Shown: piece by piece, positions 3,848-57,883 of the stretch
How positions within the stretch are numbered: position 1 is the stretch's first letter
How the letters are laid out: the number at the start of each line of letters is the position of its first letter
Assembly: GCF_010093125.1 (NCBI RefSeq)
Contig: NZ_NMZQ01000011.1
Coordinates: 1-64,000 of the forward strand
Reading direction: 5' to 3'
Length of the DNA: 64,000 nt
Source of the DNA: Veillonella sp. R32
Lineage (GTDB): Bacteria; Bacillota; Negativicutes; Veillonellales; Veillonellaceae
Translations under genes and position numbers: made by a program
The notes under the pieces: generated by a model
What the model was told of the DNA's origin: nothing
What the model saw: only the letters and a program-made list of their open reading frames with translations
Databases searched by the model: none

Positions 3848-4312
3848 TTAGTCAATAGTAACGATTCGTTCTGGTTTTTCTACTTTAAACGAAAAGTATG
3901 TAGGATTATTATTATGTTCTAAAAATAAAGTTTCACCATCAAACTTGCCGCGCCATCCTACAACAATAGGATACATACGACTAATTGTTTTTAATAATTC
4001 AATAGGCTTTAAGTTTAAAATGGGAGCAAATAAAACATTTACCCCATCCAATAAAATTACATCAGACCCACAGGCCTTTAATGCTTTACACATAACATCC
4101 TTCGCTAAATCAGGGCGTAAATCACGGGCCACTTCCAAAAATTCTTCTTCAATAAGATCTTTTGCTTCAATGTACTTCCAGCCGTCTTGTTCAGCCAACT
4201 CACGAATCAACTTACTCTTGCCGGATCCTGGACCACCCACTACAAACAGAATGCGTTCTTCATCATTCTGTAGTGTTTCCCATCGTTCTTTAATGTCCTG
4301 TGTTGTTACCAT
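3848..4312 (-). CDS. BrxF-like small P-loop ATPase (orphan)
   Basis: 154-residue P-loop protein. Walker A is GPGSGKSK (27-34); a Walker-B-like strand is VILLD (85-89). The pattern ATPase core, then DVILLDGVNVLFAPILNLKP, then VVGWRGKFDGETLFLEH-N-PTYF resembles BrxF, the small ATPase of type 3 BREX phage-defence systems, where the equivalent region is an LLD-hydrophobic-LF segment followed by a short glycine-rich strand. That resemblance is recalled, not searched. No BrxC, PglX, PglZ or helicase is nearby: it is the last gene of an operon with cca, a PBP, folD and hypAB, 24 nt after a secreted protein, and precedes a strong terminator. The function outside BREX is unknown; a generic nucleotide-binding role is the safe reading. 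Confidence 0.6.
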   Translation of the reverse strand: MVTTQDIKERWETLQNDEERILFVVGGPGSGKSKLIRELAEQDGWKYIEAKDLIEEEFLEVARDLRPDLAKDVMCKALKACGSDVILLDGVNVLFAPILNLKPIELLKTISRMYPIVVGWRGKFDGETLFLEHNNNPTYFSFKVEKPERIVTID

Positions 4313-4336: not shown

Positions 4337-5626
4337 CTACTTACTTAAATCTTTGTTAGGTCTGTCTGACAGCATTACACTTTTTATGAAATTGTCTGTT
4401 TCACCTACCGTAAACAATAGATAACTATATGCTGAATCTGGATTCTTGTAGGTGTATACCATCAAAGGTTCACCATTAGCCCCTGTGTCAGTTTCAATCG
4501 TACTTGGCATGCCATAGAGATATAACAATAAGTATTTACTATCTCCAATCGATATGCCCCGTCGCGTAAGGGCTGTGCTCTTAGTAATCATGGCCCGCGC
4601 TACCGTTTGATGCTTGTCAAAGCCAATCAACATGTCATCATAAGCGATAAATTCATCACCATATAAGAAGCCCCGCTGTTGCCACTGTTCATTTTGATCC
4701 GCTACAAAAGGTGTATTCACACGGTACCCCATGAGCGAAAAATCATCATCTGTCAAATGATTGGCTTGATAATACTGTGGCGTAACAGCTGGTAAACGAA
4801 GTTGGCCCCACACTTGCCCATCAATCATGTCGATGGCATTTACCTTATTATCCTTTAAGGTAAACACTAAGTAGTGTGTAATGGGTTGATTCTTATCAGG
4901 ATTCAACACTGCGGTATCTACCTTGTTATCTTTCGCCACCGTAACTGAAAACTCCTGCTTGTTTTTTACAAATATTTTACGTGAATCAAAAGAATATATT
5001 AAGGACACGGTTCCCTTTTTTAAGTCACGCCACATCGCCTGTGGTGCCCCATAAGCAAATAGTACAGTACCACGGCTTTTACCTACGGAAACGCCACGCT
5101 CCGTTTCAATATCAGAAGCTGTGATGTGAATATTTGTAACCGACTTAGGCATATACGAATAGGTCAGCCCTTCTTTGCGAAGAATCTTTGTCCCTTCAGT
5201 AGCTGAATAAGCGGGTCCCGTGTAAATCGTATAACTCCCGGACTCCCCAGTATAGGTCGTAAAATCGCCAGTCACTTGACCCATTTTATTTCCCCCAAGC
5301 GCAGGGCGCAAGGATTCATTTGTCAAAGCTGGTTCTGGCATGCCCAAGGTAAAATCGCGAAGGTGAAAATCTTTCCTATTCAAAGGTTCTAACGTATCGG
5401 CTGTATAACTTTTACCAATGGCAGTTAAATCCACCCCTGCATTGGCACTTTTTTGCTCTTCTAAGCTTTCCGCTAAACGAACAGCCATCTTATTAATAGC
5501 GGCACGCTCAGGAGCCCAAGTATCACTGGCATCCATCACTAAATCCGCATCACCCCCTAGTACTGGTGATGTTAACAATAAGGCACCGAGGACTAAACCT
5601 AGTTGTTTTCGTTGTAATCCCTTCAT
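4337..5626 (-). CDS. Secreted protein with duplicated domain, function unknown
   Basis: 429 residues with a Sec signal peptide (about 1-24: KGLQRKQLGLVLGALLLTSPVLG). No lipobox cysteine, so probably periplasmic. Two segments repeat the same pattern: ERGVSVGKSRGTVLFAYGAPQAMW (about 177-200) and RRGISIGDSKYLLLYLYGMPSTIE (about 356-379), each preceded by a T-A/K-S/T stretch and followed by a Tyr-rich strand. The G-x-S-x-G...L..YG.P pattern recalls small BamE/BLIP-like folds that sense thresholds in periplasmic proteins, but this is weak. It starts two nt after hypB stops, so the two are translationally coupled. I do not recognise the family. Confidence 0.7.
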   Translation of the reverse strand: MKGLQRKQLGLVLGALLLTSPVLGGDADLVMDASDTWAPERAAINKMAVRLAESLEEQKSANAGVDLTAIGKSYTADTLEPLNRKDFHLRDFTLGMPEPALTNESLRPALGGNKMGQVTGDFTTYTGESGSYTIYTGPAYSATEGTKILRKEGLTYSYMPKSVTNIHITASDIETERGVSVGKSRGTVLFAYGAPQAMWRDLKKGTVSLIYSFDSRKIFVKNKQEFSVTVAKDNKVDTAVLNPDKNQPITHYLVFTLKDNKVNAIDMIDGQVWGQLRLPAVTPQYYQANHLTDDDFSLMGYRVNTPFVADQNEQWQQRGFLYGDEFIAYDDMLIGFDKHQTVARAMITKSTALTRRGISIGDSKYLLLYLYGMPSTIETDTGANGEPLMVYTYKNPDSAYSYLLFTVGETDNFIKSVMLSDRPNKDLSK

Positions 5627-5628
5627 GA

Positions 5629-6288
5629 TTAACCCTTTCGCGCTGCATCAATTTGCTGACGCAACCAATTTGTCCAATCGTCTAGGCCCGTTTTAGCCGT
5701 ACAGCTTACTTCAAATACATCGGCCGTAGGATTTAAATTATGAATATCAGTCAGCGCCTTTTCTTTGTCAAAAGAAATATACGGCAATAAATCCACTTTA
5801 TTTAACAATACCGCTTTTGACTCTTTAAAAATAAGAGGGTATTTTAATGGCTTGTCTTCCCCTTCCGTAACGGATAAGACGGTCACTTTCATAGCTTCGC
5901 CAATAGCAAATTCAGCAGGACATACCAAATTACCTACATTTTCGATAATAATCATATCTAAAGCATCTAAATCTAAATCACTAAGAGCATCTTCAATCAT
6001 CTTAGCATCTAAGTGACAACCCCCTACCGTATTAATTTGTAGTACAGGGATACCTAATTTATGAATTCGTTCCGCATCTTTAGCCGTATATAAATCACCT
6101 TCAATAACAGCTAACGAATACTCTTTCGATAACTCTTTTAACGTAGCTTCCAACAAAGATGTCTTACCAGCCCCAGGGGAGCCTAGTAAATTAAACACAA
6201 AAATATTTTTTTCTTTAAATATGCGCTGCAAATCAGCCGCAATGGCATCATTTTTAGCAAGCACATCGGTCATTACTGTTACTTCCAT
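5629..6288 (-). CDS. hypB: Hydrogenase/urease nickel incorporation GTPase HypB
   Basis: GTPase that, with HypA, delivers nickel to [NiFe] hydrogenase precursors. 219 residues. Walker A is GSPGAGKTS (36-44); the metal-site pair Cys91-His92 (GGCHLD) and Cys123 (NLVCPAEF) match the G-domain nickel/zinc site at the HypB dimer interface. It lacks the N-terminal Cys-motif and His-rich storage tail found in E. coli and Bradyrhizobium HypB, as in many anaerobes. It sits directly after hypA. No hypCDEF or hydrogenase subunits lie in the window. Confidence 0.95.
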   Translation of the reverse strand: MEVTVMTDVLAKNDAIAADLQRIFKEKNIFVFNLLGSPGAGKTSLLEATLKELSKEYSLAVIEGDLYTAKDAERIHKLGIPVLQINTVGGCHLDAKMIEDALSDLDLDALDMIIIENVGNLVCPAEFAIGEAMKVTVLSVTEGEDKPLKYPLIFKESKAVLLNKVDLLPYISFDKEKALTDIHNLNPTADVFEVSCTAKTGLDDWTNWLRQQIDAARKG

Positions 6289-6313: not shown

Positions 6314-6655
6314 TTAATCCATATCAATGGATGCCACTTGCAATTCACGTCCTGTTATTGTTTGAATCGCTATGCTTTTACAACGAGGACATTTAAAAAC
6401 GTAATCGGCTACACTAAATTCATAGTCACAGTCAAGACATCGCCCTCGTAGTGGCACCATTTCAATTTGTAGCGTAGCATTAGCCGCTGCCGTATCTTTA
6501 GTGACGGCTGCAAAGCAAAATTGTAAGGCGTCTGGTTCAACGCCAGACATTACCCCTAACCGCAGTTGAATAGCATGAATAACCCGGCCTTTATTAGCGG
6601 CTAAGGTCTGAAGGGCAATATCTACAATTCCCTCAGCAATCGACATTTCGTGCAT
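6314..6655 (-). CDS. hypA: Hydrogenase nickel incorporation protein HypA
   Basis: Nickel metallochaperone partner of HypB. The start is placed at ATG 6655, giving 113 residues beginning MHEMSIAEGI: His2 is the conserved nickel ligand, and TGAGG lies six nt upstream. An ATG four codons further upstream has no such site and would bury His2. The zinc domain has Cys73, Cys76, Cys89 and Cys92 (CLDC...CPRC). The start overlaps the end of folD by 23 nt, so translation is coupled. Confidence 0.94.
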   Translation of the reverse strand: MHEMSIAEGIVDIALQTLAANKGRVIHAIQLRLGVMSGVEPDALQFCFAAVTKDTAAANATLQIEMVPLRGRCLDCDYEFSVADYVFKCPRCKSIAIQTITGRELQVASIDMD

Positions 6656-7481
6656 GATACGCCTCATAAATATTTTCTAATAACATAGTGGTGGTCACCG
6701 AACCTACGCCACCTGGCACCGGTGTAATCGCGCTAACCACGGGCAAAGCAGATTCATAATCTACATCGCCCACTGTTTTACCATCTAAATCATTAATCCC
6801 CACATCGATAACAACAGCCCCTGGTTTCAACATATCACCAGTAATAACATGAGCTCGTCCTACCGCGGCAATAACAATGTCGGCACGCTGTAAATGGGCC
6901 TTTAAATCAGCCGTTTTAGAATGGCAAAGAGTAACGGTAGCATGCTGTTCTAATAGCAACAACGCCACGGGTTTGCCCACAACCTGACTACGGCCAACCA
7001 CAACCACTTCTTTACCTGCTAAAGGAATATGATAATGTTCTAAAATAGCCATACAAGCTCGTGGTGTGCAAGGCCAAAAGCCACCTTTACCAGAACTAGC
7101 TAAACCAATATTTTTAGAGGTTAAACCATCAATATCTTTTTCAGGGGACAACCGCTCAATTAACGCTTCCCGATCAATTTGTGGTGGCAATGGCATAAGT
7201 GGCAATACGCCATATACTGTGTCCGACTCATTCCAACGGTCAATCACAGCAACAACTTCATCAAAGGTAGCCGTTGCTGGCAAATGCACTAAATCAACGG
7301 CAAAACCAGCATTTTTCGCTGTTTTTTCCATAAAATGAGCATACATCTGCGCTGCTTTATCGTCACCTACTAATAAGATGCCTAAGGTCAATACAATCCC
7401 CTTAGCTTCTAACGCTACGAGTCGCTCATTTAATACCGCCTTATGAGCATCTGCTACCGCCTTACCGCGTAATTCCATCAT
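6633..7481 (-). CDS. folD: FolD-family protein lacking cyclohydrolase catalytic residues
   Basis: FolD is normally bifunctional, oxidising methylene-THF to methenyl-THF and hydrolysing it to 10-formyl-THF. This 282-residue protein has the full fold: the NAD(P) site VVGRSQVVGKPVA (about 155-167), KDIDG (Asp118, equal to E. coli Asp121) and PVPGGVGSVTTTML near the C-terminus. However, the S-x-x-Y-x3-K motif reads AAQMYAHFMEK: Tyr47 is kept but the lysine position (E. coli Lys54) is Met51. The Q-L-P-L-P motif reads LPLMPLP, with Leu95 where Gln98 is expected. In characterised FolD/MTHFD1 these two residues are needed for cyclohydrolase activity. It is likely a dehydrogenase-only or repurposed paralogue. 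It overlaps hypA. Confidence 0.88.
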   Translation of the reverse strand: MMELRGKAVADAHKAVLNERLVALEAKGIVLTLGILLVGDDKAAQMYAHFMEKTAKNAGFAVDLVHLPATATFDEVVAVIDRWNESDTVYGVLPLMPLPPQIDREALIERLSPEKDIDGLTSKNIGLASSGKGGFWPCTPRACMAILEHYHIPLAGKEVVVVGRSQVVGKPVALLLLEQHATVTLCHSKTADLKAHLQRADIVIAAVGRAHVITGDMLKPGAVVIDVGINDLDGKTVGDVDYESALPVVSAITPVPGGVGSVTTTMLLENIYEAYHARNVDC

Positions 7482-7493
7482 GCCATATCCTCC

Positions 7494-9461
7494 TTAACGT
7501 TTAAAATATACTGTCACTGCATCCCCTATAGGAACACCAGTGCCTGCTGGCTCATCTTGACCAATTGCATAGCCCGTGCCATCAGGTACAAATTGTAAAC
7601 CAGCTTCATGAAGCCAATCCTTCACTTCGCCAGTAGTCCAACCAGTAAAATCCGGCATTATAATCATGCCATCATCCGTTTTAGACACAGCTGGTTTAGC
7701 TGGTCTATGTGCTTCATTCTTACCTTGTAAATCTTTCTCCTTCGTAACAGAAGGGGAGAGCTGAAAATAACGAACGAGCTGACTCATAATATCCTTAAAG
7801 ACTGGCGCCGCGATTTGACCGCCATAATATACGCCATTAGGATCATCAATCACAATAAGGGCCACAAAACGTGGGTCTTCCACAGGGCCCACTCCAACAA
7901 AGGATGCAATGTAACGACCATCTAAATAGCCCCCATGTTCTGCATCTAATTTTTGGGCCGTCCCCGTTTTACCAGCAAAATGGTACCCATCTACGGACGC
8001 TTTATTCCCGCCCCCTTCAGACACTTCTTTTTCAAGCATACCTAAAATGGTCTTTGCCACGTCTTCTGGAATTGGTTGCCCCACTTCTTTAACCTGTTCC
8101 GTTTCTACCGGACTGCCATCAGGATTATTAATACTCTTAATAATATGTGGCATCATCATTTTACCGCCATTAGCAATAGCCCCAAAGGCCTGCACCATCT
8201 GCAAAGGCGTCACAGCCACACTTTGACCAAAGGCCATGGTAGCCAAGTCTAATTGTGATATATCCGCCTCAGGAATTAGCTGACCTTCTGCTTCTCCCGG
8301 TAATTCAATACCCGTTTTCTTGCCGAAACCATAAGCCTTCAAATAGTCCATCATCACAGTTTTACCCGTCGTAATACCTAATTGAGCCATCCCTGTATTA
8401 ATGGAGTACTTCAAAATTTCCAACAATTTAACATGGCCATAGCCTTCCCCATTCCAGTTTTGGATGGTATGACCACTCACATTAATACTGCCTGTATCAT
8501 TATATACCGTATCTACAGACCACTTACCAGAGGCTAAGGCCGCCGAAGCAGTCAAAGGTTTAAAAGTAGAACCTGGTTCATATATATCGATAACCGCCCG
8601 ATTTTTAAAGGAGTTCTCACGGCCTTTTTCATAATGATTCGGATCATAGGTAGGCCGATTAGCCATAGCTAAGATTTCCCCTGTTTTAGGATCCATAATA
8701 ATTATGCTAGCCCCATTTGGTTTCGATTCTGCCATCACTTTATCTAAAGCCCGTTCCGCAATGAACTGTACAGTGGTATCAATGGTCAGCGTAATGCTTC
8801 GTTCTTTTTCTGGTAAAAACTTAGACAATACCGAGCCAAAAATAGCATTCCCATGTTGGTCAGTGGCTACTAATTCCTTGGTAATGCCACCACGAATAAT
8901 ATCATCTTTCGCCATTTCAAGGCCATCTAGCCCTTTATCATCAGTGCCTACAAACCCCAACACTTGAGCTAATAAATTACCATTTGGATAGAACCTGCGA
9001 CTTTCTTCAACAAAGTTTAGACCTTCTAGTTCATTTTCCTTCATCACTTGTGCTAAGGCTTTAGATTTATCAGGATCCATCATTCGGTCTAGCCAAATGA
9101 AAGCGGTATCTTCTTTTAAGCGCTTTTCAATCTCTGGTTCCTTAATGCGCGTATAAGGTGCAATCAAGGTAGCAATCTCTTCTGGCGACTTTTTAATCAT
9201 CTTTGGATCCGCATATAATGACCGAGTCACCATACTCATAGCCAACGGATTGCCATTGCGGTCATAAATCGTACCACGCGGCGACTGTAATTTACGGCTC
9301 GTTTCCACTTGATCTAAATTTTTAGTGTCTAACGTAGTTTTATCGATTACCTGCAACCAAATCAAACGCCCCAACAATACGACTACCGCCACGAACACAA
9401 AGAACATGAGCTTAGATATATTATCACGAAAGGCTATTTTTTCTTCACCTTTAATCATCAA
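7494..9461 (-). CDS. Class B penicillin-binding protein (SpoVD/FtsI type) with PASTA domain
   Basis: Peptidoglycan transpeptidase, 655 residues, anchored by one N-terminal membrane segment (about 16-34). The PBP dimerisation domain (about 55-215) precedes the transpeptidase domain with all three motifs: STFK (serine near 297), SIN (near 353) and KTGT (near 496). One C-terminal PASTA domain (about 600-655: MPDFTGWTTGEVKDWLHEAG) is present, as in SpoVD and Pbp2x, rather than the tail of proteobacterial FtsI. It lies four nt after cca and before folD, outside a dcw cluster, so whether it serves division or another role is open. Confidence 0.92.
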   Translation of the reverse strand: MMIKGEEKIAFRDNISKLMFFVFVAVVVLLGRLIWLQVIDKTTLDTKNLDQVETSRKLQSPRGTIYDRNGNPLAMSMVTRSLYADPKMIKKSPEEIATLIAPYTRIKEPEIEKRLKEDTAFIWLDRMMDPDKSKALAQVMKENELEGLNFVEESRRFYPNGNLLAQVLGFVGTDDKGLDGLEMAKDDIIRGGITKELVATDQHGNAIFGSVLSKFLPEKERSITLTIDTTVQFIAERALDKVMAESKPNGASIIIMDPKTGEILAMANRPTYDPNHYEKGRENSFKNRAVIDIYEPGSTFKPLTASAALASGKWSVDTVYNDTGSINVSGHTIQNWNGEGYGHVKLLEILKYSINTGMAQLGITTGKTVMMDYLKAYGFGKKTGIELPGEAEGQLIPEADISQLDLATMAFGQSVAVTPLQMVQAFGAIANGGKMMMPHIIKSINNPDGSPVETEQVKEVGQPIPEDVAKTILGMLEKEVSEGGGNKASVDGYHFAGKTGTAQKLDAEHGGYLDGRYIASFVGVGPVEDPRFVALIVIDDPNGVYYGGQIAAPVFKDIMSQLVRYFQLSPSVTKEKDLQGKNEAHRPAKPAVSKTDDGMIIMPDFTGWTTGEVKDWLHEAGLQFVPDGTGYAIGQDEPAGTGVPIGDAVTVYFKR

Positions 9462-36222: not shown

Positions 36223-39200
36223 TTAAAACTTAACATTAACTCCACCACGGAAGCGATTAGACTTAACGCTACTACCTTTTTGATATTCATAGCCTACGCT
36301 ATATGTTACATCACCTTTAGTTGCTTCTACGCCTAATTTACCAATAAAGCTACCACGATCAGTTAAATCATATGTAAAACCATTAGTTACATCACCAAAG
36401 CTTACCATTTGATCTACACTTCGTCCAGAGTTCCAAATATAGCCTAATTCTGCAACTGGCAAAATATTCCAATTACCATGCTTATAATTAGCACTGTATT
36501 TAATACCTAATGGAACTAAGAGCATATTTTTATTGGATTGATCATAGCTAAAACCATAATTAGTTATGTAATCATCTGTTTGTAAGTGTAAATAACGTGC
36601 TCCTACATATGGCACCAATGTTGCATTTTCACCTTGCGCAATGCGCTTTTCGGCACGTACACCAATACTAAATGCCTTTGTATCCGGCGAGCCTTCAACA
36701 CGTTTACCACTATTATACTGGGTTACATCATTATTACCACTTAAATAAGAAATGTCTCCAATTAAAGCATATGTTTCTTTCTCAATGCCACCATAAACAC
36801 TTAAGCCATAGAACTTAGAATCAGTGCTTGTAGATGTTGCCAACGTACGTCCATCTATATCACCCTTAGCATATGTAAAAGCCGCCCCTAATGTTTTACC
36901 GGCTTTATGATAAAAATCAGCACCAACTACTACGCCATTTAATTTATTATCGTAATCAGCATCCATACCACCACTGGTTAAATCAGAAACAGAGTCTTTA
37001 GTGTGAATTAACTGTGCCCAAACATCTTTATCATGTGTTAAATTATTAGCTAAAGACATATGATTAGTGATTGCATCATGAGTAATTCCAGATACAGAAT
37101 ATGTAGCATGAGTAGCCCCACTAAGAGCTGTTAAATTTCCTAAACTATTAAATGCATCTATCTGTTTTGCTTCGGTTATATTGACTTTATCGTCAGCAAT
37201 AGCACTAACAAGTTCATAAGCCCGTGTATCTTTATCAGCTAAGAAAGCTCCATCGATTACATCACCAATTACAAGCTTATTTCCATATACATCCTTAACT
37301 GAATTAGATTCTGCTACAACATCTAAAGTTGTAGCATCATCAGCCAACACACCTGTAAGTTTAATTAAACGTTTATTAGTCAAAATATTAGCTGAATCTA
37401 ACCAGCCTGCTTCATCAACATCAGAAATAGCCGTTTTTCCATCATTTATCAAAATATGATATGTTTTCCCAGCCACAGCATCATCTACATATAACTTAGC
37501 CGAATCGCCAATGGCTACTTTCTGAACACCACTTAACGCAGCTTTTGCCTCAGTGGCGCTGCCATCCACCATTGTTATAGAATGATCCGCCACATTGAAG
37601 GTTCCTGCCACTAATGAAGATGCCGCTTTTACCAAATCAGCATCTTGCATAGCACCATCAACCAATATAGCACCATCACTACCTAATGACTGATTTCCTT
37701 TAATATAAAGTGCGGCTGTTATATCATCTTCACCAAATGTTAACCCTGTTTTTTGGAACATTGACTTAGCATCATTACTATCACCAATTGTAGCATATGT
37801 ATTCTGACCAACAAGTAATTTACCATCAATTACGTTTTCATTAGCATCAGCTTTAGCAAAATCTACCGAAACTTCATTAGCAGCTGCCGACCAAGTAGGA
37901 TCTAAAATTAAACTACCACCATTTAAAGAAACATTAGTAAATTTTGCAATAGCATTCTGTTCTTTAGAACCTACTGTAAATTGAGAATCCTCATCAGTCA
38001 ATGTCAAATTACCAATTGCCTTCCCAATCAAAGTAGACTGATTGCCTTTTACGCTAATATCACTATTAAGTTGTCCGCCCAATACTTCTATACTACCATT
38101 ATTTAAAACAACCCCTTCAGAAACTGTTACGTCACTACCAATTTCCAAAACACTGTCATTATTAACTTGAACTTGACCAGTTAAAGTAATTTTAGTATCT
38201 TCATCTGCACTGTTATTACCTAGAAGTAATTCAGCCGGACTATTATTAATATCCTCTAACCCAACAATTACTTTTATATTTTTATCGGCTTTCCCATCAA
38301 CTAAAACAACTTCGCCACCATCTTTACCACCAAGCATCAAGCTTTCTGCACCAGCAATAACAATGCCTTTAGAGTTTGCTGCTAAATTAACTGCAGCAGC
38401 CGAAAAACCTGCTTTATTATTGCTAGATTCAGTGGCACTAATACCATCAGCATTAATTAATCCTAAATCTATATTCCCTGAAATAACTAAATTAGGATTA
38501 CCATCAATTTCTATGGTAGCATTATCATAATTTACAATTAAATTATTATTTTGCTGCTCTTTAACTTTAGATAGCGTTAATCCCTTGTCTATTAAATTTC
38601 CACTAAAAGCAAGTTTTGTATAAGAATAGTCACTATTATGAATAGCCTCTAGTGCTTTGTCTGCATAAGCTAATGAATATTTATCTGTTAGCAACTCAAT
38701 TGTTCCTGATAAGATATCCACTTTTTCTCTTACATTACTCTTAACATCAATAGGAAAAACCTTATCTCCATTAACAGTAATTGTAGTATCATCAGCATTA
38801 TTACCAAATAATTGAGTTGCTGTAGTAATTAAAGTCCCCTTATCACCTAATTGTAGCTTACCTTTACCAATAATATTTTTATCAAAATCAGCTACATGAA
38901 CCTTAGCTCCACCTTCAATCCAAACTGTAGTATCCTCATTCTTTAGATTATAAGTACCAGTATAATTTCCGCCAGTAAAGGCAATATCTGTACCTTCAAA
39001 TACTAATTTATCACTAAGAGTTAAATCACTTTCTAAATTAATATCTCCAGCCCCTAATAATCGGCCCTCTAAAGATTCGACATTAGCTAATTCAATAAGG
39101 CCACCATCCTTAGCTTCAAGGTCCCCCTTAATAGATTTTACACCATCAATAATAACTATACCTTTATCATAAGTTACTATTTTCCCATTGAAATTATTTA

Positions 39201-40539
39201 AACTATTAAGATTTAATCTTGCGGATCCATAATATTCAGGCTTATCTGTACTATCGTCACCATCACTGTCTAAATCATAGTTAACAGCAACTGTTGCATT
39301 TAAAGAATATTTATTTTGACCATCTACCGTTAACGAACTTTCACCTATCCCTTGATTTTCATAATACTTATTATTAAAAATCTCTAATGTATGTAACTCA
39401 TCAGCTTTAAGCGATAAATCTTTATATAAATTTATAGTAGATTTTTTTGCACCAAATGGCATAGTAATAGATTTAATAGTTCCATCATAATAATTTACAA
39501 CTACATTATCTATTAAATTTTTATTTACACTACTATACGCTCCACCACTAGTTTCTGTATCTCCACCAAGTCGTAAATAATTAATAACTCCACCATAAAT
39601 ATTAATTGTACTATTCTCTATATGTGACTGAGTCTCTACGCCAATCACATCTTTAATATTCCTAAACGAATCCTCAATATCTACAGAGTTTGCCAAGTTA
39701 TTTTTATCTGGAACTGTTAAAGGTCCAGCAATTGCATAGCCACCTGCTATAATATTAAAATTTTCACCTGACTTAACTGTAATTGTAGACTCTAATACCT
39801 CAGAATGCCCACCTGCTTGTGCAAAACCACCTCCGTATACTTCGGTAAATTCTTTAAATCCTTCAGGATTATCAATGACAATATTGACTTTGTCAACAGT
39901 AGCAAATGTGTTGCCCCCAATTGCCGCGCCACCGCCAAAAATAAGATTAGTATTATAACTATAGTTATCATTAGCCTCCTCAGCTTCTGGTGTTACAAAA
40001 ATATCTTTAAATTCTCCACCAGTAAGAGTTAAATTAGTAGTAGTGTCAGCAACATCTAATTTACCGGTAGCAACATATTCACCAGTTCGCTGTGCTACAG
40101 AGCCAGCGAATATAGGCGCTGTAAATTCACCACCGCTAATGCTTAGTATTACATCTTCCGTATCAGATTGACCAAAACCAGTAAATTTATCATTAGCTAT
40201 TAAATAATGGCCCCCAATAATCGAGCGACTTAATTCAACATTTGAATTTGATTCTTTATTTGTCAATGCGCCACCTGAAATGGCAACCGTAGGATTTTCT
40301 GGAGTTTTAACCCACTGCTTTTCATTGCCTGTTAAATTAAGCTTTTCGCCTCCTACTACCCCATAATAGGTTCCACTAGAAATAGTTGTAACTTTATCTA
40401 CTGCATCAGCTGCTAGTACTGGTTGCCCAATACTAAAGTAAACGCCCCCCGTTAAACTTACAGCCATTAAAGCCAACATTACCTTCTTTTTTAATTGTAA
40501 ATGCTTCTTACTAGCTTTTGATTTAAACACAGTACACAT
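36223..40539 (-). CDS. Type Va autotransporter, large outer-membrane/surface protein
   Basis: 1438 residues. N-terminal signal with an extended basic region (KSKASKKHLQLKKKVMLALMAVSLTGGVYF...VLA, cleavage near 44). The passenger (about 45-1165) is rich in Asn, Asp, Thr and short GG/LTGG-NL repeats, as expected of a right-handed beta-helix. The C-terminal autotransporter barrel is about 1170-1438 (WAQL, GVVVGADFYHKAGKTLGAAFTYAKGD, ending GGVNVKF with terminal Phe). The ATG at 40539 directly abuts GAGAGG; a GTG three codons downstream has better spacing and may be the real start. Probably an adhesin; ligand unknown. Confidence 0.93.
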   Translation of the reverse strand: MCTVFKSKASKKHLQLKKKVMLALMAVSLTGGVYFSIGQPVLAADAVDKVTTISSGTYYGVVGGEKLNLTGNEKQWVKTPENPTVAISGGALTNKESNSNVELSRSIIGGHYLIANDKFTGFGQSDTEDVILSISGGEFTAPIFAGSVAQRTGEYVATGKLDVADTTTNLTLTGGEFKDIFVTPEAEEANDNYSYNTNLIFGGGAAIGGNTFATVDKVNIVIDNPEGFKEFTEVYGGGFAQAGGHSEVLESTITVKSGENFNIIAGGYAIAGPLTVPDKNNLANSVDIEDSFRNIKDVIGVETQSHIENSTINIYGGVINYLRLGGDTETSGGAYSSVNKNLIDNVVVNYYDGTIKSITMPFGAKKSTINLYKDLSLKADELHTLEIFNNKYYENQGIGESSLTVDGQNKYSLNATVAVNYDLDSDGDDSTDKPEYYGSARLNLNSLNNFNGKIVTYDKGIVIIDGVKSIKGDLEAKDGGLIELANVESLEGRLLGAGDINLESDLTLSDKLVFEGTDIAFTGGNYTGTYNLKNEDTTVWIEGGAKVHVADFDKNIIGKGKLQLGDKGTLITTATQLFGNNADDTTITVNGDKVFPIDVKSNVREKVDILSGTIELLTDKYSLAYADKALEAIHNSDYSYTKLAFSGNLIDKGLTLSKVKEQQNNNLIVNYDNATIEIDGNPNLVISGNIDLGLINADGISATESSNNKAGFSAAAVNLAANSKGIVIAGAESLMLGGKDGGEVVLVDGKADKNIKVIVGLEDINNSPAELLLGNNSADEDTKITLTGQVQVNNDSVLEIGSDVTVSEGVVLNNGSIEVLGGQLNSDISVKGNQSTLIGKAIGNLTLTDEDSQFTVGSKEQNAIAKFTNVSLNGGSLILDPTWSAAANEVSVDFAKADANENVIDGKLLVGQNTYATIGDSNDAKSMFQKTGLTFGEDDITAALYIKGNQSLGSDGAILVDGAMQDADLVKAASSLVAGTFNVADHSITMVDGSATEAKAALSGVQKVAIGDSAKLYVDDAVAGKTYHILINDGKTAISDVDEAGWLDSANILTNKRLIKLTGVLADDATTLDVVAESNSVKDVYGNKLVIGDVIDGAFLADKDTRAYELVSAIADDKVNITEAKQIDAFNSLGNLTALSGATHATYSVSGITHDAITNHMSLANNLTHDKDVWAQLIHTKDSVSDLTSGGMDADYDNKLNGVVVGADFYHKAGKTLGAAFTYAKGDIDGRTLATSTSTDSKFYGLSVYGGIEKETYALIGDISYLSGNNDVTQYNSGKRVEGSPDTKAFSIGVRAEKRIAQGENATLVPYVGARYLHLQTDDYITNYGFSYDQSNKNMLLVPLGIKYSANYKHGNWNILPVAELGYIWNSGRSVDQMVSFGDVTNGFTYDLTDRGSFIGKLGVEATKGDVTYSVGYEYQKGSSVKSNRFRGGVNVKF

Positions 40540-43301: not shown

Positions 43302-44741
43302 TTACTTACGTTTTTTGCTAGCTTCATATTCAGCATATACATCGCGGAACTTTTTGAGTTTCAATGTATTCATGTCTTTGGCTTTCACCCAACCACCAAC
43401 AACTGGTAAGAGTTTCGTCCAATCTGCCATTTGACCATTTTTACTCATCAATTTCATGCCGATAGCACCCAATTTGGTACCATAGTCAAATAAGAAGGAA
43501 TTACTGAATACAGTCGCCACTGTTTTGAAAATTGCTTCTTCAGCAGCTGGACGAAGATGCGCTTTATCAGCAATATTAACACGATGTTTCAACAATAATT
43601 CATGGAGTGGAATCTTAACTGGACAATGTTCCCAACATTCGCCACAAAGGGTAGACGCATATGGTAAATCGCCCGCTTTTTCATAACCAACCAATAATGG
43701 TGTCAATACGGCACCCATTGGACCTGGATAAATAGAGCCATACGCATGGCCTGTAATATGACGATATACTGGGCAAATATTCATGCACGCACCACAACGG
43801 ATACAACGAAGCATGGAGTTAAATTCGCCACCTAAAATATTGGAACGACCATTGTCAATAATTACAATATGCAATTCTTCTGGACCATCTGCTTCCCCCG
43901 CTTTAGCAGGACCTGTAATCATAGAGAAGTAGTTGGAAATTTTAGCCCCAACGGAAGAACGAATTAATAATTCCATCATTACATCAAGACCAGCAAAGTC
44001 AGGCACAATACGTTCCATCCCCATAAGACAAATCATTGTCTTAGGCATGGAGCTACTCATACGACCATTACCTTCATTAGATACGATAGTAATTGTCCCT
44101 GTTTCAGCTACAGCGAAGTTACAGCCAGTGAAGCCAATATCTGCTTTAAGGAAACGATCACGAATACGTTTACGTACGAAACGTGTCATTTCTTCTGGAT
44201 CTTCTGTTCCTTCATAGCCTAATTTATCATGGAACGTTTCACGAATACGTTCACGAGCAAAATGCAAGGCTGGTACTACGATATGAGATGGTGGATTCCA
44301 GTCAGCGGTTTGTAGAATAAACTCAGCTAAGTCTGTTTCATTTACTTCTACGCCTGCATTCATCAAGGCTTCGTTCAAGCTAATTTCTTCAGACACCATG
44401 GTCTTACCTTTTACGACCATCTTAGCATTTTTTTCACGAACTACTTGAAGCACATAATCGTTTGCTTCTTTCGCGTCGCGAGCAAAATGTACTTTTGCGC
44501 CAGCTTTTGTTGCATTTTCAGCAAATTGATTTAAATAGTAGTCTAAGTTGCTTAGTACATGGTCACGAAGTTCAGCCGCTTCATCGCGGAATTCTTCCCA
44601 TTCAGGCACTTGGTCAACCAAGGCTTTACGTTTCGCATAAAAAACATCCTGCGCTTTTTGAATGGCCTTTACCTTAAAGTCATTGGCAAGAACATCTGCA
44701 ACGCGAGTTTTAAATGGACGTTGATCATATAAAATAGCCAT
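43302..44741 (-). CDS. lutB: Lactate utilisation iron-sulfur protein B
   Basis: 479 residues: LUD-type N-terminal domain (GFTGCNFAVAETGTITIVSNEGNGRM near 200-225) and two [4Fe-4S] ferredoxin motifs, CIRCGACMNICP (near 312-323) and CGECWEHCP (near 368-376). Length and order match LutB (YvfW). It lies 19 nt after lutA and 12 nt before lutC. Electron acceptor not visible from sequence. Confidence 0.95.
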   Translation of the reverse strand: MAILYDQRPFKTRVADVLANDFKVKAIQKAQDVFYAKRKALVDQVPEWEEFRDEAAELRDHVLSNLDYYLNQFAENATKAGAKVHFARDAKEANDYVLQVVREKNAKMVVKGKTMVSEEISLNEALMNAGVEVNETDLAEFILQTADWNPPSHIVVPALHFARERIRETFHDKLGYEGTEDPEEMTRFVRKRIRDRFLKADIGFTGCNFAVAETGTITIVSNEGNGRMSSSMPKTMICLMGMERIVPDFAGLDVMMELLIRSSVGAKISNYFSMITGPAKAGEADGPEELHIVIIDNGRSNILGGEFNSMLRCIRCGACMNICPVYRHITGHAYGSIYPGPMGAVLTPLLVGYEKAGDLPYASTLCGECWEHCPVKIPLHELLLKHRVNIADKAHLRPAAEEAIFKTVATVFSNSFLFDYGTKLGAIGMKLMSKNGQMADWTKLLPVVGGWVKAKDMNTLKLKKFRDVYAEYEASKKRK

Positions 44742-44760
44742 TTTCAGTTCCTCCTAACGA

Positions 44761-45498
44761 CTAGCGAGAATTTAATAATTCTGCAATGTGCATTACTTTA
44801 ATACGGCGATCAATTTCGCCATCTTTATAGAGACGATCAAGCATACCTTCAATATTCATGAGGCAAGCTTGGTCACTACCAGCTACAACATTAGCACCAG
44901 AATTATAAATATTCATTGCTTTCTCGCGTGTCATAACAGCAGAAATTTCTGGCTGTTTTACCGTAAAGGTACCACCGAAACCACAGCAACCTTCCGCACG
45001 ATTCATAGGTAAGTATTCAAGCCCTTTAATGTTTTCCAACAACTTCATAGGAGGCTCTTTAATCCCCATTAAACGGGTAACGTGGCAGGATTTATGATAC
45101 GTTACTTTATCATTAAACGTAGCCCCTACATCAGTAACCCCTAATACGTTGACAATAAATTCTGTGAACTCATAAATGCGTTCACTTACTTTAGCCGCCC
45201 GTGCTAACCATTCTGGTTCATCCGCCAAAATATGGCGGTATTCATCACGAATCGCAAAGGCACAAGAACCGGACATGCTCACGATATACTCTGCATCTTC
45301 AAAGACTTCAATTGTATTCTTGATAGCCCCTTTAGCCGCATCATTATACCCGGAGTTAACAAACATCTGCCCACAGCATACTTGCTTCTTAGGCACTGTT
45401 AAATCACAGCCCAATCGTTCTAATACCTGTACGCCGGCCATCCCCACATGGGGATAAAACATGTCAATCAAACATTGTGAAAATAAATGAATTTTCAT
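44761..45498 (-). CDS. lutA: Lactate utilisation protein A (CCG-domain subunit)
   Basis: 245 residues, two Cys-rich CCG domains (DUF224). First domain: PKKQVCCGQMFVNSGY; second: YHKSCHVTRLMG and EGCCGFGGTFTVK (near 170-182). These bind the noncanonical iron-sulfur cluster seen in heterodisulfide reductase-type subunits. First gene of lutABC behind a good promoter (45634-45662). Confidence 0.94.
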   Translation of the reverse strand: MKIHLFSQCLIDMFYPHVGMAGVQVLERLGCDLTVPKKQVCCGQMFVNSGYNDAAKGAIKNTIEVFEDAEYIVSMSGSCAFAIRDEYRHILADEPEWLARAAKVSERIYEFTEFIVNVLGVTDVGATFNDKVTYHKSCHVTRLMGIKEPPMKLLENIKGLEYLPMNRAEGCCGFGGTFTVKQPEISAVMTREKAMNIYNSGANVVAGSDQACLMNIEGMLDRLYKDGEIDRRIKVMHIAELLNSR

Positions 45499-45633
45499 TT
45501 CCTCACATCCTCAACTTTCCTACGTACTTACACTTACTTTGATTACCCACACTTGCGCATACTTACTTTAAAAAAACTTCTTCATTACAAAAGACATTTA
45601 AAACTGTATAATCGCACGGAAATCATCACTAAT

Positions 45634-45662
45634 ATTATATAGAATAAAAAAAATTATGTCCA
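45634..45662 (-). promoter_or_regulatory. Promoter of lutABC
   Basis: Minus strand -35 TGGACA (45657-45662), 17-nt T-rich spacer, -10 TATAAT (45634-45639). It leaves a leader of about 130 nt before lutA; no obvious operator palindrome seen in the 410-nt gap. Confidence 0.7.
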
Positions 45663-45803
45663 AAGAATTGCGATATTAGCAACTGTCTTATTCCATATGC
45701 ATTACGCGCATACTTAACATTTATATAAGTAAAATGAATTTATTCTATTCAACTAAAAAGTACTATTTGATAAACCTAGCCATTCATTCCCCTTATATAT
45801 ACC

Positions 45804-45832
45804 TTTAACGGCCTGCTAGTTCGTGATATAAT
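45804..45832 (+). promoter_or_regulatory. Promoter of the SLH-ArnT-SLH locus
   Basis: -35 TTTAAC (45804-45809), 17-nt spacer, -10 TATAAT (45827-45832), about 75 nt upstream of the first SLH gene. Confidence 0.6.
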
Positions 45833-45908
45833 CAAAGTATTCAAACAGAATTTTTTCGATTATCCATGAATCGTTTTACACACTACCAAATTAGAAAGGG
45901 GTTTCACC

Positions 45909-47390
45909 ATGAAAACAAAATCCTTACCATTAGCCCTATTAGTGGCTACCCTATTAACATCTACATCGTTTACTAGTTTAGCCGCTGATGACACAACTGC
46001 GGATACAGCAACGGCTATTGCTGCCACCGCTACAACAGCATCAACGAACGCAACTACCACCACTACAACCACCACGAGCACTACTGTAAAAACAAAAGAA
46101 TTAACCAGCGCGGATAAAGAAAAAGCTGAGCTCGTAACCGAACTAAATAAAAAAGCAGCCGCTTATGAAGCAGAACAAGCAGCTAAGGGCTTCAAAGATG
46201 TAAAAAATCATTGGGCCGCTGTACAAATTAACACATTCTTAGAGGAAGGCATTCTCTCCGGTAATGGGCAAGGTCTATTCCATCCTGATGAAGCTTTAAA
46301 AACAGCGGATGCCGCTTCACTCTACAATAAACTCATTACTGCCGATCAAGCAAAAGCAGCCGCTAAAGCTAAGACAGAAGTAAAAAAATCTAAAAAAACA
46401 GCTACCACAACTGTAAAAGAAATTACTGGCGATGAACTATTAGCCCCCTTTGCTAAAGCAGATACGTTAACACGTGAAGAATTTGCGCAAACCGCAGCTC
46501 AGTATTTAGCCTACAAAGATGACTTAGCTAAAGCCGCTATTAAGAGCAAAACAAAAGCTAACGAATATGCACCGCAAGTAATTGTAGCGCCAGCTGACGT
46601 ATCGTTCCCTGATGAAAATAAAATTGATAGCGACTACAAAGAAGCCATTGTGACCTTAGCTAGCCGTGGCATGATTGCTTCTGGTGGGGACAGTAACTTC
46701 TTCCGCCCAACTGATGACATTACACGCGCCGAAGCGGTTGCCATTTTATTCCGCATTGATAAAAACTTGCCAATCAGCGCCACAACTACTAAAACAACCA
46801 AAGAAGACGCTAATAAAGAATCGACTACAGCCAAAACAAGCACGGCCACCAAGACTAGTGAAAGCAGTACTCCTACCCGTACGGTAACAGCGAAACCAAC
46901 AGCGGCCCTAGAAGACCAATCTGAACTAGAAAATAAAGTATTTAAAAAACTAAACAGCTTATACAAAACACCTGGCAATTTCCAAAACTACGGTGTAATG
47001 TACTGGCAAAATAATGTACTCCATGTAGCTTTCAAGAGCGATGAAGACCTTGCCAAATTTGAAGATATATTGGCTAAAGATGAAAAAAGTACAAACGACG
47101 ATAAATTAATATTAGCTAAACGCATTCATTTAGAATCAACAGAATATAGCCAAGCCGAATATGATCGTATTGAAGCTAATTTCCGTACCTTCTATGCACA
47201 AAAACAACCAGCCGGTACCATTTTAGCCGTCTATCCAAGCGTAGCCCATAATCAATTAGTCGTACGTATCGATAAAGGTTTCGATTACATGAATGATTCC
47301 ATTCGCAGTGCCTTTGGCAACAAAGTACACGTGTTCTTAGTTACTAATAACACTAATACTGATACAACGACCAATACAACTACACGATAA
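45909..47390 (+). CDS. SLH-domain surface protein
   Basis: 493 residues. Signal peptide about 1-25 (ending SLAA), then a Thr/Ala low-complexity linker (about 26-62), a charged helix, SLH-like repeat 1 (GFKDVKNHWAAVQINTFLEEG, about 94-145) and repeat 2 (VSFPDENKIDSDYKEAIVTLASRGMI, about 230-285). A C-terminal domain (about 340-485: MYWQNNVLHVAF, then TILAVYPS and FGNKVHVFL) is shared with the protein at 49188-50489. SLH domains of Negativicutes bind polyamine-carrying peptidoglycan; no OmpM-type barrel is evident. Probably a periplasmic/envelope linker. Confidence 0.88.
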   Translation: MKTKSLPLALLVATLLTSTSFTSLAADDTTADTATAIAATATTASTNATTTTTTTTSTTVKTKELTSADKEKAELVTELNKKAAAYEAEQAAKGFKDVKNHWAAVQINTFLEEGILSGNGQGLFHPDEALKTADAASLYNKLITADQAKAAAKAKTEVKKSKKTATTTVKEITGDELLAPFAKADTLTREEFAQTAAQYLAYKDDLAKAAIKSKTKANEYAPQVIVAPADVSFPDENKIDSDYKEAIVTLASRGMIASGGDSNFFRPTDDITRAEAVAILFRIDKNLPISATTTKTTKEDANKESTTAKTSTATKTSESSTPTRTVTAKPTAALEDQSELENKVFKKLNSLYKTPGNFQNYGVMYWQNNVLHVAFKSDEDLAKFEDILAKDEKSTNDDKLILAKRIHLESTEYSQAEYDRIEANFRTFYAQKQPAGTILAVYPSVAHNQLVVRIDKGFDYMNDSIRSAFGNKVHVFLVTNNTNTDTTTNTTTR

Positions 47391-54834: not shown

Positions 54835-56175
54835 TTATAATTCTTCTTGTATATCCTTCATCGGATCGACCACTACATAACGCTGAGCCTTGCCTTCTTT
54901 TTTAGCTTGCCAAGTTGCTTCATAAGCATCACGGCGCACCGTTTCATCGGCCTGCCAAGGAATAAAAGTAGCAAATACATGTTGCGAGCCAAAGGGACCT
55001 CTGTCACTACGTGAATCAATGCTATGCCAACCTACTTTATCAGGATATAGACGGATAGTTTCTTGCCGATACTCAGAAATACCCGTTTCATCATAATAAA
55101 TTTGTCGTTGGTCATGCCAATAATCTCCGAGCCCTAATAAAGCATCTACTTGCATTTCATGGCGTCGTTGCCACTGCTGTTGCCACTGTTTAATAATCCC
55201 CTCGATACGCTGAGATACATCCCCCCGTTGACGATTACTATATTCATCAAAAGCGGGCTCTACCACTTGACTGTAATCAAGCCCTGCCATGGAAAGTACA
55301 ATGCCCGTATTTACATAAGGCAATGCTTCCTGTACAGAATAGCCCCCTTCTAAAACAGCAATATCAGCCTGCAATAAATCAGTTAATTTAGCATACCCTT
55401 TAGCCGTTACCATCATATTCGCTAAGGGGTCACTAAAATGATTATCCTGACCTGCTGAATTAATAATGATATCCGGTTTAAAATCAGCTAACATGGGCAA
55501 TACTAGTTCTTGCAATACTGTGAGCATCCCTTCGTCACCGGTTCCTGGAGGTAACGGAATATTAACCGTACTCCCCACCGCTTGCGGACCGCCATATTCA
55601 TACATAAACCCAGTGCCTGGATATAAGGTCCGCCCATCTTGGTGAAACGAAATAAATAATGTATCTGGATCATGATAGAACACATCTTGCGACCCATCAC
55701 CATGATGTACATCCGTATCAACAATGGCCACTCGTTGTACCCCATAATGGCGGCGTAAATAAGCAATCATAATAGCTTCCACATTGACCGTACAGAAACC
55801 ACGAATGCCATGAACCATCGTCATAGCATGATGACCTGGTGGTCGAACAAGTGAAAATGCCCGTTTCACCTCACCACGCATCACCGCTTCCGCCGCTGCG
55901 ATAGCACCGCCCACTGATACGCGATGAGCTTCCGTTACCCATTTCTCTAAAGATGGTGCCCCTACGTGCACCCGTTTAATATCTTGCCAGGAAGCCAACA
56001 GCGGATTATATTCGCGAATAGCAGGATGTTCTAAGAGGCCTTCTTCTAACAACTGGTCCCGTGTATATAATAAACGTTCTTGCCGTTCTGGATGGGTCGC
56101 TGAAATTTTCCAATCAAAAGCGGGAAAAAAGACCAATCCTAAATTAGCTTCCGTAGGCTTATTTTTATTTAACAT
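54835..56175 (-). CDS. Histone deacetylase-family amidohydrolase
   Basis: 446 residues, of the class II/acetylpolyamine amidohydrolase-type bacterial HDAC family. Zinc-site and charge-relay motifs: RPPGHHAMT (near 112), DTDVHHGDGSQDVF (near 150-163), FHQDGRTLYPGTG (near 173-185), AGQDNHFSDPL (near 243-253). C-terminal 100 residues lie outside the core. Its start overlaps the HyuA-like gene by 11 nt. Possible substrates are acetylated polyamines or N-acetyl-amino compounds; polyamine genes are elsewhere in the window, but this is inference. Confidence 0.85.
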   Translation of the reverse strand: MLNKNKPTEANLGLVFFPAFDWKISATHPERQERLLYTRDQLLEEGLLEHPAIREYNPLLASWQDIKRVHVGAPSLEKWVTEAHRVSVGGAIAAAEAVMRGEVKRAFSLVRPPGHHAMTMVHGIRGFCTVNVEAIMIAYLRRHYGVQRVAIVDTDVHHGDGSQDVFYHDPDTLFISFHQDGRTLYPGTGFMYEYGGPQAVGSTVNIPLPPGTGDEGMLTVLQELVLPMLADFKPDIIINSAGQDNHFSDPLANMMVTAKGYAKLTDLLQADIAVLEGGYSVQEALPYVNTGIVLSMAGLDYSQVVEPAFDEYSNRQRGDVSQRIEGIIKQWQQQWQRRHEMQVDALLGLGDYWHDQRQIYYDETGISEYRQETIRLYPDKVGWHSIDSRSDRGPFGSQHVFATFIPWQADETVRRDAYEATWQAKKEGKAQRYVVVDPMKDIQEEL

Positions 56176-57883
56176 ACAGGCTCACCCCCGGTTCTAATTG
56201 CGCTTTCACCGTAATCAAACGATGCATAGACTGCCAGCCCTCAATAATAGGCACATCTTCAACTGCTACAATATGGCCTTCAGCGGCATTACTAAGGCCT
56301 AAACGCTCTGCTTCTTGCTTTACATACTGTAGAGCCAGTGCTTCTACTTCGGATGCGGCATGTAGGCCTTTATGTTTCTCATGAATGCCTAGTTCCGGCA
56401 CTACTAACACCCCTTTAGCCGTATCTAAATGAACCGTAATCATCAACGTTTCTTTCGCTACCGCCGCTCCTACCGCATTAGCCACTGGTGCATTGGCCGG
56501 AATCTCCAAAGGTAAATCCAAAGCCTCTGCTACAAACGGAGCTAACGATGCCGCCGTACCACCAACCGCCACAAGTTGTTGTGGCTTAAAAATATGAGGC
56601 TCTACAATATCGCGCACCACATATACAGGGAGTTTATTTTCTCGCCCTATAGCAGTGGCTAACCCATCTGTAATAACCGTTACAGCGCGAGTCACTACTT
56701 GCTTAGCCAGGGCTAAGGTTAAGCTATCAACCTTAGTCTCTGAAAGACCACCCTCGAAGCGACTTACTTCAGAAGGCCTTAACTCACTGCCTTGCCAAGC
56801 TTTAGCTAACTCGCTCAAGCCAGCCCAAGCTTTGGCCACATCACCATATTGGGCTTTACCTAATACAATTAAAGCATCACCTAATGTAGGAACTGTACCG
56901 CCAAGAGCCATAGATGGACCTACTCGCTCTGGCCCTACTTGTAACTGCCCCTTGTCATTAAGTGTTACGGCTGATTCACCACCAATACCGACTGAACTAA
57001 CCGCAAACGAACGAACTGCACTCGGATATTGCTGTATCATAGCGCCACCACGGGCCATAAGCGGTTTGCCCCCTTGCCATAAGGAAATATCCGTCGTAGT
57101 GCCACCCATATCCAAGGCGACTGTCATCTCTTTAGGCATAGATTGCAAGGCCACCATTCCTAGCACACTCGCTGCAGGGCCCGTAAAGGCCGTTTCAACA
57201 GGACAAGCCTGCATATGTGCTAAAGGTAATGAGCCACCATCCGCTTTAAGAATATACACGGGTGCCGTTAAACCATAGCGGTGCAAAGCTTGCTGAACTG
57301 CCGTTGCAAACCCCTGAAACGTACTTTGTACAACACTATTAAAATAGGCACTAATCGTACGACGCGGAAAATTCAAGGCTCCACTAAGCTGTGCGCCCGC
57401 CGATACACTCTTATAGCCAGCCTTCTGCAAGGAATCTACTAAGTTCTGTTCTAAGCTGGGATTCCGAACGGCAAATTTAGCTGATACAGCGGCCCGTTTA
57501 TGCCTCTTTGCACCACTTAATGCTTCTAACTCTTTCGGCTTCAAAGGCGCTGCTAAGGAGCCACGATGATCCGTATAACCACTAAGTACAATAGGCTCTA
57601 CAGGCAATAAAGGCCTAATATCCATGCCAGGGCCAGGAATAATATATAAATCTACAGGCTCCACCTGATTCATAACTAGCGCATTTGTCACAATCGTAGT
57701 TGACAAGGTAATTCTCGTTACTTTACTTGGTTCAATCGCCTGTGCCACACCGGCCAACGCCGCTTCAATCCCGTCCATCAAATTAGGCTTCGTCGTACGG
57801 CACTTATGACTTTGTACAATATGACCGTTGTCTATGACAATGGCATCTGTAAAAGTACCACCTACATCCAGACCTAGTAACAT
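56165..57883 (-). CDS. Hydantoinase A / oxoprolinase-family (HyuA-like) protein
   Basis: 572 residues of the ATP-dependent hydantoinase A fold. N-terminal ASKHA nucleotide motif LLGLDVGGTFTDAIVI (2-17) and second phosphate motif ALDMGGTTTDISLW (near 253-266), with GPAASVLG preceding it. Shorter than classical HyuA (about 700). No HyuB subunit in the window. It overlaps the HDAC-like gene and is presumably coexpressed. True substrate unknown; related proteins work on hydantoins, 5-oxoproline or acetone. Confidence 0.85.
   Translation of the reverse strand: MLLGLDVGGTFTDAIVIDNGHIVQSHKCRTTKPNLMDGIEAALAGVAQAIEPSKVTRITLSTTIVTNALVMNQVEPVDLYIIPGPGMDIRPLLPVEPIVLSGYTDHRGSLAAPLKPKELEALSGAKRHKRAAVSAKFAVRNPSLEQNLVDSLQKAGYKSVSAGAQLSGALNFPRRTISAYFNSVVQSTFQGFATAVQQALHRYGLTAPVYILKADGGSLPLAHMQACPVETAFTGPAASVLGMVALQSMPKEMTVALDMGGTTTDISLWQGGKPLMARGGAMIQQYPSAVRSFAVSSVGIGGESAVTLNDKGQLQVGPERVGPSMALGGTVPTLGDALIVLGKAQYGDVAKAWAGLSELAKAWQGSELRPSEVSRFEGGLSETKVDSLTLALAKQVVTRAVTVITDGLATAIGRENKLPVYVVRDIVEPHIFKPQQLVAVGGTAASLAPFVAEALDLPLEIPANAPVANAVGAAVAKETLMITVHLDTAKGVLVVPELGIHEKHKGLHAASEVEALALQYVKQEAERLGLSNAAEGHIVAVEDVPIIEGWQSMHRLITVKAQLEPGVSLYVK

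Follow-up and report, generated by a model that had tools for sequence, protein, structure and literature searches.

A FolD homologue lacking the catalytic lysine and glutamine in Veillonella sp. R32: a predicted monofunctional dehydrogenase paired with FchA

The folD locus and the fhs-fchA pair

The window analysed here is a 64-kb stretch of DNA from Veillonella sp. R32, and folD lies on its minus strand with an ATG start (Table 1). Membership of the FolD family is indicated both by the Pfam domains and by the predicted fold. THF_DHG_CYH (PF00763; 95.9 bits, 2.5e-27) and THF_DHG_CYH_C (PF02882; 217.6 bits, 7.5e-65) are near full-length matches above the family cut-offs, and the AlphaFold2 model (mean pLDDT 95.9) matched solved FolD structures such as 3p2o in Foldseek with a TM of ~0.95.

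E. coli residue numbers refer to a FolD reference sequence, which we take to be correct. In alignments with E. coli FolD and solved FolDs, Met51 and Leu95 occupy the sites of Lys54 and Gln98, the catalytic pair required in a bifunctional FolD, and Tyr47 and Asp118 align with Tyr50 and Asp121. Both substitutions had been proposed in a sequence-only reading of this DNA and were borne out. Its further claim that Tyr47, Asp118 and the NAD(P) region are intact also held, as the alignment places the first two and as Arg164, Ser165, His187 and Ser188 match the set of residues described for the NADP 2'-phosphate in human DHCH (PMC3368264). Since this set is retained, NADP is predicted to be the cofactor. 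The residues of the dehydrogenase and its NADP site are kept.

The FolD lysine is the general acid-base of the cyclohydrolase step, and the glutamine positions it (PMC3338484). In E. coli, the K54N enzyme has undetectable cyclohydrolase activity and ~19% of the dehydrogenase activity, and the Q98H enzyme has ~1% and ~8%, respectively (PMC5688156). Because Q98H lowers the dehydrogenase as well, natural enzymes without Lys and Gln must compensate somehow.

Table 1. Features of the window; codon positions follow the numbering of the 282-aa FolD
Feature	Position	Strand	Basis
folD, predicted monofunctional 5,10-methylene-THF dehydrogenase, 282 aa	6633..7481	-	Pfam, alignment, predicted fold
Tyr47 codon (= E. 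coli Tyr50), kept	7341..7343	-	alignment; place computed from ORF start
Met51 codon, site of catalytic Lys54	7329..7331	-	alignment
Leu95 codon, site of Gln98	7197..7199	-	alignment
Asp118 codon (= E. coli Asp121), kept	7128..7130	-	alignment
Arg164-Ser165 codons, predicted NADP 2'-phosphate binding	6987..6992	-	human residues, PMC3368264
His187-Ser188 codons, predicted NADP 2'-phosphate binding	6918..6923	-	human residues, PMC3368264
hypA, if the start is MHEMS (listed ORF start 6667); overlaps folD end by 23 nt	6314..6655	-	
hypB, part of conserved neighbourhood	5629..6288	-	
gene for a penicillin-binding protein, a conserved neighbour 12 nt upstream of folD	7494..9461	-	
429-aa protein (orf429)	4337..5626	-	no Pfam or NCBIfam match
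BrxF-like P-loop protein	3848..4312	-	NF033453, 94.8 bits, cut-off 50
1438-aa protein with autotransporter beta-domain	36223..40539	-	
histone-deacetylase-domain protein gene overlapping hydantoinase_A gene	54835..57883	-	

Family-profile matches confirmed the neighbours that had been suggested for folD, hypA and hypB. In all Veillonellaceae loci examined the order is folD-hypA-hypB, and the hypA match starts within the end of folD. The penicillin-binding protein gene is found upstream of folD in all of these loci but the short stretch L039. The BrxF-like gene stays beside hypB and orf429 in loci L007-L011, and no other BREX genes were identified among its neighbours examined. The place of the 429-aa protein is conserved, and its middle is variable, in V. 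seminalis, V. ratti and V. sp. KGMB01456. Elsewhere the window encodes an autotransporter-type protein and a pair of overlapping genes (Table 1).

The host genome is 99.9% complete, and a genome-wide search found a single FolD. When a second folD or fchA was sought, as had been proposed, the genome yielded no second canonical folD, just a weak PF02882 match (8.4e-4) without the catalytic domain, and an FchA-family gene. This PF04961 gene (46476-47018, E = 1.8e-68) is directly next to fhs (44693-46354), ~0.1 kb beyond it, on contig C53 and away from folD; a separate gene of this kind is what an FchA-paired monofunctional dehydrogenase would call for. FchA is its only NCBIfam match, at 208.6 bits and below the cut-off of 275, so that the name FchA rests on family and position, and PF04961 takes in cyclodeaminases too. 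The genome also encodes PurN and Fmt, two users of 10-formyl-THF.

Conservation of the residues and co-occurrence with FchA

Each of the 28 Veillonellaceae genomes searched has exactly one FolD, with Met/Leu at both sites. Among named relatives, the nearest found was Veillonella intestinalis, whose FolD is 95% identical. The dN/dS was 0.03 in this comparison; a second one, with a more remote congener, gave 0.06, with dS near saturation. The gene is intact and under strong purifying selection. Because the Met/Leu pair is invariant in these genomes and dN/dS is as low as 0.03, it is not a product of chance.

Negativicutes FolDs were aligned at both motifs, as had been put forward as a check: 69 sequences carry K/Q at the Lys/Gln sites, 3 carry K/E, and the others lack both residues except for one Q/Q. 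FolD residues were read and FchA was searched for in 142 genomes, a match with an E of 1e-40 or better being counted as strong. Strong FchA was found in 71 of the 72 genomes that have only Lys-less FolD. Among the 67 genomes with only Lys-bearing FolD, the match was strong in 17, weak in 10 and absent in 40; all 3 genomes with both types have FchA. In the one Lys-less exception, G141 (92% complete), FchA was not found even at E = 1; G111 and G144, of the same genus code, do have it. Fisher's test gave p = 7e-22 for the Negativicutes, a value that assumes independence among genomes that are in fact not independent.

A separate sample of Clostridia gave a similar picture. PF04961 was above the cut-off in 38/38 genomes with only Lys-less FolD (35 strong, 3 weaker) and in 1/52 with Lys-bearing FolD (G209, against 51 without); the counts cover genomes whose FolD residues were read individually, and ~20 more Clostridia have a canonical-scoring FolD. 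The one clostridial genome with both types has FchA. In both classes the co-occurrence counts overstate the independent evidence because there are just two independent losses of the lysine, and the independent-pairs test, with two pairs only, is without power. No statement of a link between the Lys/Gln pair and FchA was found in the open-access literature searched.

These two losses were read from a FolD tree that was built by a quick method, has many weakly supported forks and had both trait columns left in; on it the loss of Lys takes two changes, each accompanied by FchA. The first is a large clade across Negativicutes and Clostridia with mostly hydrophobic residues at both sites. The second is a small clade (L075, L207, L211 and L214) in which Gln replaces Lys54 and Gln98 is retained; FchA is present in all four, and the clade apparently represents a separate loss. 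The L075 FolD also has Glu at the pterin-binding Asp. Three further FolDs (L057, L064 and L071, from genomes G139, G092 and G096) keep Lys and have Glu for Gln98, with FchA in all, and possibly represent an intermediate state. FchA looks to be needed for the loss of Lys; it is not by itself the cause, because some Lys-bearing genomes have it. In a column comparison, the two main FolD classes split most cleanly at positions 54 and 98, and columns 51, 145, 170, 265, 266 and 268 are also shifted between them.

A probable division of labour and alternative explanations

The explanation that we favor, to which we assign a probability of about 0.88, is a division of labour in which FolD is a monofunctional NADP-dependent methylene-THF dehydrogenase and FchA is the cyclohydrolase. 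We infer the enzyme activities, the cofactor preference and the flux. With NADP(H), the predicted dehydrogenase would convert methylene-THF to methenyl-THF and back, which is expected since the folate cleft residues (Tyr47 and Asp118) and the NADP site are kept. The Lys/Gln pair for methenyl-THF hydrolysis has been lost from FolD, and the fchA product, encoded right after fhs, very probably performs this second reaction in its place. Fhs, FchA and FolD together would join formate, 10-formyl-THF (for PurN and Fmt) and methylene-THF. The sequence-only reading had offered either a monofunctional dehydrogenase or a repurposed folate/pterin enzyme. The former gains strong support from the sole copy, the presence of fchA, the class-wide co-occurrence and the published mutants, and the latter is not supported, as this is the only FolD beside PurN, Fmt and Fhs and has an intact predicted fold, NADP site and set of other active-site residues.

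There is a small chance that FolD is still bifunctional, with Lys53, for example, or an ordered water replacing the lysine. In the alignment of Lys-less FolDs, conservation of Lys53 is 90% or higher, and a water relay was put forward for MTHFD2 in a modelling study that left the role of the lysine unsettled (PMC9173628). However, E. coli K54N keeps Lys56 and its cyclohydrolase activity is nevertheless undetectable (PMC5688156), and where Lys is absent FchA is nearly always present in Negativicutes and Clostridia. An alignment with another Lys, such as Lys53, in the active site had been named as evidence against loss of the catalytic residue, and it was not obtained. Lys53 falls in the column of E. 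coli Lys56, where canonical FolDs too mostly have Lys, some Lys-less FolDs have Arg or Asn, and both classes vary; Lys53 was therefore rejected as a substitute for Lys54.

It is less probable still that FolD has been repurposed outside C1 folate metabolism, acting on another pterin or in hydrogenase maturation with HypA and HypB. The family-wide gene order with overlapping ends and the presence of a [NiFe] hydrogenase in 28/28 Veillonellaceae genomes are consistent with such a role. However, this is the sole FolD of a genome that has PurN, Fmt, Fhs and FchA, its Tyr, Asp and NADP residues are retained, and HypX was absent among the formyltransferase-domain proteins. Moreover, Lys-less FolDs occur in other families with no hypAB nearby (L012-L014), and the hyp context therefore does not explain the residue loss. 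A functional link between Lys-less FolD and hypAB is unlikely, and hypA probably lies outside the dehydrogenase/FchA mechanism. To our knowledge, the anaerobic CO ligand of [NiFe] hydrogenase is still unexplained; that the overlapping folD-hypA-hypB genes couple C1 metabolism to [NiFe] hydrogenase maturation, for example through a formyl precursor of this ligand, seems very doubtful.

Decay or sequencing error in an inactive gene, which would account for two catalytic residues unlike those of the textbook enzyme, is already refuted by conservation, given the identical residues in 28/28 related genomes, the dN/dS of 0.03 to 0.06 in the pairs computable, the full-length ORF and the confident predicted fold.

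The Lys54/Gln98 pair seems to offer a simple way of reading from sequence whether a FolD can catalyse one step or both. This compact two-residue marker may be new, as may its extent over both Negativicutes and Clostridia. The curated models that match the Veillonella FolD bear "bifunctional" names, and whole clades are therefore probably misannotated. Models of C1 metabolism in Lys-less clades overlook that FchA may be indispensable. Since carolacton, an inhibitor of FolD, leaves E. coli K54N unaffected (PMC5688156), Lys-less FolDs are predicted to be naturally insensitive. It is also possible that these enzymes reveal how dehydrogenase activity persists without the lysine.

Comparison with known systems

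The bifunctional FolDs of E. coli, Campylobacter (3p2o) and human MTHFD1 share the fold (TM ~0.95) and ~38-42% identity with the Veillonella protein. Tyr and Asp are common to both, and the NADP site is as in MTHFD1. In contrast, the Veillonella FolD is without the catalytic Lys and Gln, and several other columns differ by class.

In Clostridium perfringens, as Aluri et al. are said to have described in 2016, FolD is a dehydrogenase only, FchA is the cyclohydrolase and Fhs is present. Veillonella sp. R32 likewise has folD, fchA and fhs; it differs in that its folD sits beside hypAB and away from fhs-fchA. The separate genes for FchA and FolD also recall the fhs-fchA-folD arrangement of the acetogen Wood-Ljungdahl pathway (PMC9040625, PMC3584212). 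By their coordinates, Lys-less folD genes adjoin fchA in several Negativicutes genomes. In these fchA-adjacent, acetogen-type FolDs the two sites are mostly occupied by Ala/Phe, whereas those of Veillonellaceae have Met/Leu and are not beside fchA. The proposed FolD/FchA split is a well-supported and ordinary division of labour of a kind familiar from clostridia, and all Veillonellaceae examined share it.
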